A DNA stretch of 24,239 nt from a virus. The stretch lies in the IMG/VR virus record IMGVR_UViG_3300047509_000032, positions 1-24,239 of that record. One strand, written 5' to 3'. Made by a program: the position numbers and the translations under genes. The notes under the pieces are model-generated. The model saw only the letters and a program-made list of their open reading frames with translations, had not been told where the DNA came from and did not search any database. This document shows positions 3,157 to 5,019 of the stretch, in pieces; position 1 is the first letter of the stretch, and the number at the start of each line of letters is the position of its first letter.

Positions 3157-3705
3157 TTATCTAAAGTTTGTACGTACGGCCGTCTTTTGTGTAGTAGGCA
3201 GCGCCGCTACCGCCAGCGCCGCCAGAACTGCTAGAGGTAATAACGCCGCCGCGTGCTCGGCCGACGCCCCGCCGCGACCGCCACCCGTCATAGGAATAGA
3301 CGGTATCATTTGCAGGGCTACTACAGTGCTCTTAAGTTCCTTAAACTGCTCTTGCATTTTCTTTAGTTCATCGCGGAGGTCAGCGAGATCTTCCGCCATG
3401 ACGGAAAGTTCTTCTGACGTGGAGTAGCCGGGAATCGAACCCGAGTCCGGAGTTGTTCCGCTTGCGGCTTTTCCCTCCGTCGAAACCTTCCTACCCCCTG
3501 GATCACAGGACCAGCAGTCAACCATGTTCTTGAACACGCTGACACCGCAGGTTCCGCACGGCTTACCGCCAGCGCCGTTCCATGTACGGCGCAAGCGCTG
3601 ACAGTAATCACGCTGGCAGAGGTAACGAATTTTGTCGTTGTACCGCTTGCCAGGGCACTGCGTGCGCTTGTTGCACGCTGCACATTTATTAGTCCCGTAA
3701 CTCAT
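3157..3705 (-). CDS. Zinc-finger, coiled-coil, single-pass membrane protein
   Basis: The 182-residue frame has three parts. Residues 1-68 carry cysteine pairs C8/C11, C30/C35, C50/C53 and C64/C67, suggesting two zinc knuckles. Residues about 98-132 form a charged heptad-like helix (DLADLRDELKKMQEQFKELK). Residues about 152-170 form an alanine/leucine-rich membrane segment. A tail-anchored protein with its zinc domain in the cytoplasm is the simple reading. The linker at residues 70-95 coincides exactly with a tRNA-like sequence (3421-3497), so this DNA may serve both as codons and as an RNA gene, or the protein may really be two pieces. No family is recognised. The ATG at 3705 lacks a strong ribosome site. 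The gene lies between the intein-bearing gene and the secreted proteins. Confidence 0.6.
   Translation of the reverse strand: MSYGTNKCAACNKRTQCPGKRYNDKIRYLCQRDYCQRLRRTWNGAGGKPCGTCGVSVFKNMVDCWSCDPGGRKVSTEGKAASGTTPDSGSIPGYSTSEELSVMAEDLADLRDELKKMQEQFKELKSTVVALQMIPSIPMTGGGRGGASAEHAAALLPLAVLAALAVAALPTTQKTAVRTNFR
3421..3497 (-). ncRNA. tmRNA-like tRNA domain without tag sequence
   Basis: Read on the minus strand, the 77 nt form a 7-bp acceptor stem (GGGGUAG with CUACUCC) whose third pair is G3-U70, the alanine identity pair, and an A follows at the discriminator position. Next comes GGUUUCGAC (3487-3479), the conserved D-loop sequence of tmRNA, with no D-stem. A 5-bp stem CGGAG/CUCCG (3479-3475 with 3452-3448) takes the place of the tmRNA P2 helix. 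Then come GAC and a T-arm (UCGGG, loop UUCGAUU, CCCGG). Only 22 nt lie inside the P2-like stem, where a normal tmRNA has some 300 nt of tag frame and pseudoknots. No 7-nt anticodon loop exists, so it is not an ordinary tRNA. CCA is not encoded. It sits inside a reading frame. Function is unknown; chance resemblance seems unlikely given so many matching elements. Confidence 0.65.
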
Positions 3706-3744: not shown

Positions 3745-5019
3745 CTAGTGGAATATGATGGCTAGCACGGACCCGAGCGCTATTAGGATGGACACTCCGG
3801 CGAGCAAAAGAGAGTAAGAGGCTCGCGCTCCCTCTTGGCGGCCTGTGCTCTGATCCAGACGAGATGTCAGCCTTAGCTCAAGATTGGAAACACGCTCAGT
3901 TAGCGCATCTATCTTATCTGCAACCGCTTGGTAAGATGCCGCATGCTCAACGCGACTGATTAGCGTGGCCGCCTGATCTGCCAGTTGCCCCCGGAACTCA
4001 TTTGTAGCCTTGAACCGTTCTCCTGCGGCGGATTCTGCCTTGCTAGCTGCCTTCTCTGCGGCTGCCAACGCGGCCTGGACAGCTTTGTCCGCTGCGTCGA
4101 AAGCGGTTTTCATGGCCGTGTTGTGCATGGCAAACCCGGCAGCGATGTACGTCCCCGTGGACGTGGACAGGGATGCGATGGTACCGCGCGCCCGCTGGCC
4201 CACGCAATGGACAGTCACCGCCCGCGCGTCACCGCTGATGCTGTGGCCCTCCCACACCCGGTCGCTGTGCGCGAGCAGCCGGGCAGGCCGCACGCTGCCA
4301 AGGAGCTTCATCACATCAGCGCGCCTGGATACCTGGTAACGGTTAATGAGTTTCTTGTTGTGGTAACGTCCGGCCTCCACCTGCGTTATGGCCGGGTCAC
4401 GGCCAAGGCAGTCCTTGACAGCCATAAGCAGGGCATCCGCCGTAGGGCCGGCAGCCTGGGCGATCCCCAGGCGGGCACTGCGGTCGCCTGGCGCGAACGT
4501 CAGCCAGCCCTCACCGTCGTACATGCCCGACAGCCAGCCGCCGTCCCACGTCCGGTCCACTTCCCAGACGTCCGTGACGTGCATGACCTGGTTACCTGGC
4601 CTGAGATCCCTGGTCTTACGCCAGAGCCAGCGATTCTCGTGCTTGGTCTTTACCAGCCACGGATGCTCAGGATTGCACCGCACGTCACCTGCCGCCGTCC
4701 TCACCAGCATCAGGTCATCCTGTGCCAGCCTGTTCGCGGTGACAACAGCACGCCGGAAGTTCCGGCCACTGCGTCCGGTGCCGGTATCTGACTCTGCATC
4801 AAACGCGATCAGCTCGTCACCCGGCCGCAGTTCACCGGCTGGTCGCCACACCAGATCAGCGCACAAAACCGGCGTGGATGCCTCGCAGCACTGCTGCGCT
4901 ACGAAAGCTGCGTCCGTGGCTTTAGTCTGCGTGGCGTACCGTTCATCCAGCGCTGTCCGCAGGTCTGTTAGCTGAGACTCAAAGTACTTTTTAAGGGTCT
5001 TAAGCGTCCAGCCGGTCAC
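3745..5019 (-). CDS. Coiled-coil membrane protein interrupted by an intein
   Basis: The 424-residue precursor starts at a GTG whose GTGA overlaps the previous stop. Residues 1-43 and 301-424 are the host protein: an amphipathic start (LKKYFESQLTDLRTALDERY), a long alanine-rich coiled coil containing NEFRGQLADQA, and a C-terminal membrane helix (about 402-423). Joined across the intein, the pieces read continuously (AQQ then TAMKTAF) as a 167-residue protein. This matches a type of small membrane-anchored coiled-coil protein I recognise from actinophages, often suspected of a holin-like or tail-associated role, though its function is not established. Residues 44-300 are an intein, described separately. 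Loss of splicing would put a 257-residue domain in the middle of the coiled coil. Confidence 0.8.
   Translation of the reverse strand: MTGWTLKTLKKYFESQLTDLRTALDERYATQTKATDAAFVAQQCCEASTPVLCADLVWRPAGELRPGDELIAFDAESDTGTGRSGRNFRRAVVTANRLAQDDLMLVRTAAGDVRCNPEHPWLVKTKHENRWLWRKTRDLRPGNQVMHVTDVWEVDRTWDGGWLSGMYDGEGWLTFAPGDRSARLGIAQAAGPTADALLMAVKDCLGRDPAITQVEAGRYHNKKLINRYQVSRRADVMKLLGSVRPARLLAHSDRVWEGHSISGDARAVTVHCVGQRARGTIASLSTSTGTYIAAGFAMHNTAMKTAFDAADKAVQAALAAAEKAASKAESAAGERFKATNEFRGQLADQAATLISRVEHAASYQAVADKIDALTERVSNLELRLTSRLDQSTGRQEGARASYSLLLAGVSILIALGSVLAIIFH
4120..4890 (-). other. Intein with single LAGLIDADG-type motif
   Basis: The segment codes residues 44-300 of the coiled-coil protein. It starts with Cys44 and shows an N-terminal splicing block ending in ELRPGDELIAFD. 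A B block follows with NPEHPW (residues 116-121), then an endonuclease-like motif GWLSGMYDGEGWL (161-173), and a C-terminal block with GTYIAAGFAMHN. Asn300 is followed by Thr301 as the first C-extein residue. These are the expected catalytic residues for protein splicing (Cys1, block-B His, His-Asn, +1 Thr). Cys45 directly after Cys44 leaves a one-residue uncertainty at the N-junction, but Cys44 gives the continuous extein. Only one LAGLIDADG-like motif is visible, so a homing nuclease may be reduced. The DNA is clearly more GC-rich than its surroundings (about 70% at 4141-4260), a sign of recent arrival. Confidence 0.85.

Follow-up and report, generated by a model that had tools for sequence, protein, structure and literature searches.

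The minus strand of a 24,239-base IMG/VR virus contig (here called the window, that is, the whole stretch of DNA analyzed) carries, within an open reading frame, a sequence resembling the tRNA-like domain (TLD) of tmRNA reduced to the size of a tRNA. The contig contains terminase, portal, and WhiB-like genes, from which the virus is probably a phage of actinobacteria. The locus raises the question of what this RNA is and of what use a tmRNA without a tag message might be to a phage.

The Window Element Is a Complete tmRNA TLD

Sequence inspection and comparison with Rfam revealed that positions 3420–3497 of the minus strand comprise a complete TLD of tmRNA without the tag message. In minus-strand order, the element reads GGGGUAG-GAAGGUUUCGAC-GGAG-GGAAAAGCCGCAAGCGGAACAA-CUCC-GGAC-UCGGGUUCGAUUCCCGG-CUACUCC-A, and the coordinates of its parts are collected in Table 1. 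The reading of this locus in the initial annotation was correct in all of the parts that it named: a 7-bp acceptor stem with G3-U70, discriminator A, a D-loop without a D-stem, a 5-bp P2, GAC, and a T-arm are each present in the sequence. The location and length that it gave (3421–3497, 77 nt) fall one base short: the discriminator A lies at 3420, just past that end, and the molecule is 78 nt through A73. The first C alone of the CCA end is encoded in the window copy (CACG).

TABLE 1. Positions of the tag-less TLD, its parts, and the overlapping reading frame in the window
Feature	Positions	Strand	Basis
Tag-less tmRNA TLD RNA, 78 nt through A73	3420–3497	minus	Rfam RF00023, 51.6 bits, E 7.9e-18
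Acceptor stem, 5' strand GGGGUAG	3491–3497	minus	7/7 pairs with 3421–3427
tmRNA-type D-loop GAAGGUUUCGAC, without D-stem; final C starts P2	3479–3490	minus	Sequence; RF00023 alignment
P2, 5' strand CGGAG	3475–3479	minus	5 bp with 3448–3452; P2 covaries, 96.9% of cells paired
22-nt stub in place of tag reading frame and pseudoknots	3453–3474	minus	RF00023 alignment
Parts of the stub: purine-rich bulge and apical hairpin CCG-CAAG-CGG	3458–3467 (hairpin)	minus	Pairing
P2, 3' strand CUCCG	3448–3452	minus	Sequence; P2 covariation
T-arm UCGGG-UUCGAUU-CCCGG, preceded by GAC (GGAC)	3428–3444	minus	Sequence; T-stem covariation
Acceptor stem, 3' strand CUACUCC, U70 facing G3	3421–3427	minus	7/7 pairs; G3-U70 in 142/143 distinct homologues
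ORF, 182 aa, element in frame at about residues 70–96	3157–3705	minus	Zinc-ribbon-like N-terminal part; coiled-coil-like part after element

The Rfam tmRNA model RF00023 matched the element with 51.6 bits, above the curated gathering score of 47 bits (E 7.9e-18), and was aligned end to end over model positions 1–374. Here, 314 model positions are replaced by 22 nt, exactly the number enclosed by P2 (CGGAG/CUCCG), which bears out the earlier statement that the tag frame and pseudoknots are missing and only 22 nt are left. The R1 covariance model, among whose sequences the window element was itself included, returned 94.3 bits. By contrast with the Rfam check, the proposed check with ARAGORN yielded neither a tRNA nor a tmRNA gene on the window element, and no tag was found. 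Thermodynamic folding, also put forward as a check, was undistinctive: the minimum free energy (MFE) fold had no T-arm and, with a z score of −0.91, was not unusually stable. Support beyond chance is provided by the Rfam score and by covariation over 67–143 distinct homologues.

The element belongs to the tmRNA family by its model match, as do its relatives, with 47 of 49 homologue records also scoring over the RF00023 cut-off. Its 7-bp acceptor, G3-U70, A73, D-loop without D-stem, and T-arm are those of a tmRNA TLD; the TLD alone is present, and the source is a virus record with terminase and portal genes, as for a TLD-only phage tmRNA. The mRNA-like domain (resume codon, tag, and stop) is absent from the window element according to both the RF00023 alignment and ARAGORN, and pseudoknots PK1–PK4 are likewise absent, the 22 nt leaving no room for them. 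The window RNA is the tRNA half of tmRNA and falls outside the tmRNA definition with respect to the tag and the pseudoknots.

Related identities were considered and rejected. A permuted (two-piece) tmRNA was ruled out, with the halves in standard order 22 nt apart and the corresponding model RF04321 giving only E 0.12. A canonical tRNA-Ala was ruled out by the lack of an ARAGORN tRNA and of a cloverleaf with D-stem and anticodon arm. Given that the apical loops vary (CACG, CATG, GCAA, GTAA, and others), no anticodon-like or decoding triplet is common to the elements. An ssrA attP fragment, consisting of the 3' end only and lying beside an integrase, was ruled out for the window, where both TLD halves are present.

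Compensatory Changes Preserve All Four Helices

In an alignment of 72 model matches, which was fitted to the model and thus leans towards it, all four helices covary, with a score of 0.610 versus 0.114 for shuffled partners and standard pairs in 97.9% of pair cells versus 72.8%. In the same alignment, the score fell to 0.04–0.08 when partners were slid by 1–3 columns, and changes on both sides were observed in each of the acceptor, P2, apical hairpin, and T-stem. For P2 and the T-stem, an anchor-based count over 67 non-redundant elements agreed with this result. Covariation in the T-stem is seen at positions 1–2. Acceptor pairs 4–6 vary freely, with four or five pair types, whereas pair 3 remains G-U. 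P2 is capped by an apical hairpin, which is present in 63 of 67 homologues, with 92.4% of cells paired and a loop most often of the CAHG or GNRA type. Since D-loop length varies, a MAFFT alignment (A1) misaligned the acceptor, and a model derived from near-length-matched sequences was used instead. The stems are thus kept in homologues by compensatory change and not broken, the outcome on which the initial annotation had made its proposal depend.

Distribution among Phages, Viral Contigs, and Bacteria

Among named phages searched by blastn, the same ~80-nt form was found in the Streptomyces phages Shaeky, GiJojo, LuckySocke, and BRock and in the Stenotrophomonas phage Jojan60, all of whose elements exceed the RF00023 cut-off, and a diverged copy was found in the Streptomyces phage Alone3. 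The Streptomyces phage pSt2308 also carries the element (89 bits with R1). The carriers include complete genomes of Streptomyces and Stenotrophomonas phages. In these named phages, and in the Streptomyces phage Riptide described below, the element lies among or beside tRNA genes and is either not annotated or covered by a small hypothetical ORF.

IMG/VR was scanned with a pattern in which only the UUCGAC, GGAC, and T-arm bases were fixed, the acceptor was left unspecified, and a gap of up to 52 nt was allowed. Five scans, four of which subdivided the UUCGA T-loop form according to a single base of the T-stem and one of which addressed UUCAA, gave 43, 58, 18, 75, and 32 contigs, respectively, a total of 226 contigs with 143 distinct elements. 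Gap lengths among the matches clustered sharply at 25–32 nt. Although not asked for by the pattern, a perfect 7-bp acceptor was present in 141 of the 143 distinct elements, as compared with 0.7% of the time at random places in the same contigs under a best-of-8 search. The two exceptions were cut by a contig end (L300) or had a 2-nt deletion relative to near-identical contigs (L032). G3-U70 was retained in 142 and A73 in all 143, and CCA was encoded in 40.

When the first pattern was applied to bacterial and archaeal genomes totaling 257 billion bases, 84 stretches were obtained, about five of which are the tag-less element (records of Acidimicrobiales, Prochlorococcus, a cyanobacterium, Mycobacterium, and Parafrankia). 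The remainder were rejected as chance T-arm/TTCGAC pairs with longer gaps and poor acceptor pairing. A full-length tmRNA was located on another contig in four of the five bacterial assemblies with a tag-less element. Given this near-absence from bacterial and archaeal genomes, the class is essentially viral. A contig with a related terminase (L219, 65%) has no element within 10 kb upstream, which indicates that the element has not become fixed in the lineage of the window phage.

Several variants were encountered. The Streptomyces phage Riptide (L222, 1472–1548) has a diverged copy with an altered D-loop (GGUUAGAU) and GGAC motif, perhaps reflecting changed SmpB contacts, in which the acceptor, G3-U70, and apical hairpin are kept. 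Longer-gap relatives (40–43 nt) with a GGGCCGG acceptor and G3-U70 occur in L040, L050, and L120 and form a second size class of tag-less TLD; P2 is 12–15 bp in L040 and L050. In L006 (2476–3101) and L070 (5905–6228), ARAGORN calls spurious-tag tmRNAs that join a tag-less element with unrelated neighboring sequence, and annotation pipelines may thus mislabel this class.

Other tmRNA-related arrangements were also noted. In the Tunturiibacter phage Tunturi_4 (L010, 2119–2971), a permuted tmRNA directly follows a gene annotated as an RF-1-domain release factor, such that two ribosome-rescue functions adjoin in one phage. In the Mycobacterium phages Nibb (L008) and Squirty (L009), a tyrosine integrase is immediately preceded by sequence of the ssrA 3' end, as would fit an attP for ssrA integration; that of Nibb scores 31.8 bits with RF00023, below the cut-off.

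The Overlapping Reading Frame and Its Neighborhood

The initial annotation had suggested that the DNA may serve two purposes. In support of this, the element does lie in frame in the 182-residue ORF, whose codon usage is coding-like on both sides, favoring the ORF frame before, within, and after the element, such that this copy may be read through. Dual coding is, however, not established: in 14 of 67 homologues the element lies within an ORF of at least 100 aa on its own strand, as compared with 59% for random positions. Given that the homologues avoid long same-strand ORFs, overlap with a coding sequence does not belong to the design. Searches of viral contigs, phages, and PHROGs yielded no relatives of the ORF protein, and Pfam gave a sub-threshold match only (DUF3138, E 0.0036). 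Downstream of about 3290 (window 3157–3300, minus), codon usage prefers another frame, ending in GGVITSSSSGGAGGSGAAYYTKDGRTYKL and a stop just before the next gene; this switch is either a frameshift or the end of an overlapping gene.

It could be supposed that the window copy is mainly protein-coding, with the ORF reading through and the RNA-like sequence serving as an imported linker. We regard this as very unlikely. Although the frame is open across the element and favored by codon usage throughout, a coding role would not require 78 nt to reach 51.6 bits with the tmRNA model while retaining every pair and identity element, and the avoidance of long ORFs by homologues, the lack of detectable relatives of the ORF protein, and the preference for another frame beyond about 3290 also speak against it.

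Elsewhere in the window, a coiled-coil-like ORF (3745–5019, minus) contains an intein-like insert (about residues 44–300) in which a LAGLIDADG-like motif (LSGMYDGEGWL) occurs. About 84 aa of this insert are missing from the near-identical contig L218, as though through deletion of the endonuclease part. A dCMP-deaminase-like gene (141–560, plus) has homologues in eight tag-less tmRNA loci (L018, L020, L024, L037, L042, L052, L101, and L107), often on the same strand and a few kb from the tag-less tmRNA.

Relation to Known Tag-less tmRNAs

The initial annotation took a tag-less minimal form to be unknown in phages. This is not so, and the TLD-only kind of phage tmRNA is already known: mycobacteriophage DS6A is listed as “TLD only” in a passage of PMC4131195 that cites Mao 2009 and in PMC11915505. 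Like the window RNA, that of DS6A is phage-encoded and has little beyond the TLD and no tag frame. It differs in host and sequence and is reported from a single phage, and its likeness to the window RNA is one of description rather than of compared P2 helices and apical hairpins. Jakobid and other mitochondrial tmRNAs without an mRNA-like region (RF02544) have also kept the TLD and lost the tag frame, but are organellar and usually permuted into two pieces, whereas the phage RNA has a capped P2 and consists of a single uninterrupted stretch of ~78 nt. The CDS-less plastid tmRNAs of Mallomonadaceae (~65 bp; PMC11915505) are similarly continuous, tRNA-sized, and without coding sequence, but are known from two sequences only and represent organellar reduction rather than a phage gene. 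Full-length tmRNAs of the Mycobacterium phages Kumao and Wildcat, the Gordonia phage Boopy, and the Streptomyces phage Annadreamy are phage-borne and have a homologous TLD; they possess a tag reading frame and pseudoknots, whereas the window RNA has neither and is missed by ARAGORN.

Of the 97,179 sequences in the 2025 tmRNA database, nine are classed as “standard, no CDS” and 79, of any form, come from phages (PMC11915505). A published survey of phages (PMC9004378) depended on ARAGORN, a program that failed to detect the window copy and the majority of the homologues tested. What appears to be new here is the breadth of the class, the conserved apical hairpin, and the near-absolute alanine identity pair; its breadth and architecture appear to be uncatalogued.

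A Putative Charged Decoy in trans-Translation

We propose that the phage encodes, in this element, a free-standing tmRNA TLD and, with moderate confidence, that the function of this RNA is the inhibition of host trans-translation, as judged from its structure, its conservation, and the literature on a similar molecule. The RNA would probably be excised by host tRNA-processing enzymes and then completed with CCA, and its G3-U70 and A73 make it a likely substrate for charging by alanyl-tRNA synthetase (AlaRS). The conserved D-loop, elbow, and T-arm correspond to the parts of tmRNA bound by SmpB and EF-Tu. Once loaded with host SmpB and EF-Tu, the alanylated RNA would vie with the full-length tmRNA of the host, both for SmpB and for ribosomes that have stalled on truncated mRNA. 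Since it lacks a resume codon, a tag frame, and a stop codon, the RNA cannot tag, and the predicted net effect is that truncated phage products undergo less SsrA tagging and proteolysis and that, possibly, rescue is reduced under mRNA-cutting defenses. Neither a match to SmpB nor a second match over the tmRNA cut-off was found in 49 element-bearing records, many of which are fragments; in the absence of a phage SmpB from these records, the RNA would have to work with that of the host. If the RNA makes use of SmpB, EF-Tu, and AlaRS, these have to be supplied by the host.

A similar TLD-only RNA strongly inhibits tmRNA in Escherichia coli, “perhaps acting by titrating SmpB,” according to a passage of PMC4131195 and to PMC11915505. 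Together with the conserved TLD features, this supports as probable the competition with host tmRNA for SmpB, EF-Tu, or AlaRS that had been suggested for the window RNA. The near-absolute retention of G3-U70 suggests that the RNA acts while charged and on the ribosome, beyond simple titration. Features that weigh against a decoy are the MFE fold, which has no T-arm and is not unusually stable, the position of the element inside an open frame, and the lack of a sigma-70-like promoter near the element in the window.

The main rival to the decoy would be rescue without tagging, as proposed for mitochondrial tmRNA, in which the charged RNA and host SmpB take over the nascent chain, the complex falls apart untagged, and ribosomes are recycled. 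Truncated phage proteins would then escape SsrA-directed proteolysis, and the phage would supplement rescue rather than block it. We consider this unlikely, although the alanine identity pair, kept in 142 of 143 distinct elements, is as expected if transpeptidation matters. We know of no release step that operates without a tag stop codon, and in 49 records largely overlapping those searched for SmpB, an RF-1-domain protein was found in one and a peptidyl-tRNA hydrolase in none. In the literature, tmRNA that lacks a tag frame and SmpB are found together in mitochondria, where this RNA is considered still to assist when mRNAs are incomplete (PMC11915505), whereas the similar molecule described in part of PMC4131195 inhibited tmRNA in E. 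coli. Still less probable is a counter-defense role, in which the RNA would soak up a host defense factor that senses or cuts tmRNA or tRNA, such as systems with SmpB-like domains. SmpB-like domains in CoCoNuT defense systems are predicted to bind tmRNA (PMC11090510), and several copies of the element lie within phage tRNA clusters, but a tRNA is found within 1 kb for only 16 of 67 non-redundant copies, no direct tie to any defense system was seen, and the strict G3-U70 and A73 point to charging and not to a mere decoy shape.

The initial annotation had also allowed for a relic, that is, the remnant of a captured tmRNA gene or ssrA attachment site with no present function. It is true that ssrA 3' ends lie beside an integrase in Nibb and Squirty, as in attachment sites, and that loss of the DNA separating the two halves of the domain is conceivable. 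However, for the class this option is refuted because the helices covary, with compensatory changes in the acceptor, P2, apical hairpin, and T-stem. The sharp 25–32-nt insert length across many unrelated contigs, the presence of both halves, and the lack of any integrase noted beside the window element argue in the same direction, such that we give a relic scarcely any credence.

Tag-less TLDs with a capped P2 and a strict alanine pair are probably widespread among phages as a class of small RNA that has largely escaped cataloguing. When charged and loaded with SmpB, they would divert ribosome rescue or redirect it, as a strategy general to phages rather than a peculiarity of one mycobacteriophage. 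The near-absolute G3-U70 poses the question of why a decoy must be chargeable, given that, as reported in a passage of PMC4131195 and in PMC11915505, inhibition of tmRNA in E. coli was already seen with an unchargeable version. The cultured phages that carry a tag-less gene make a counter-rescue role testable. If these elements do block or redirect trans-translation, they would constitute a common RNA-based phage countermeasure against ribosome rescue.
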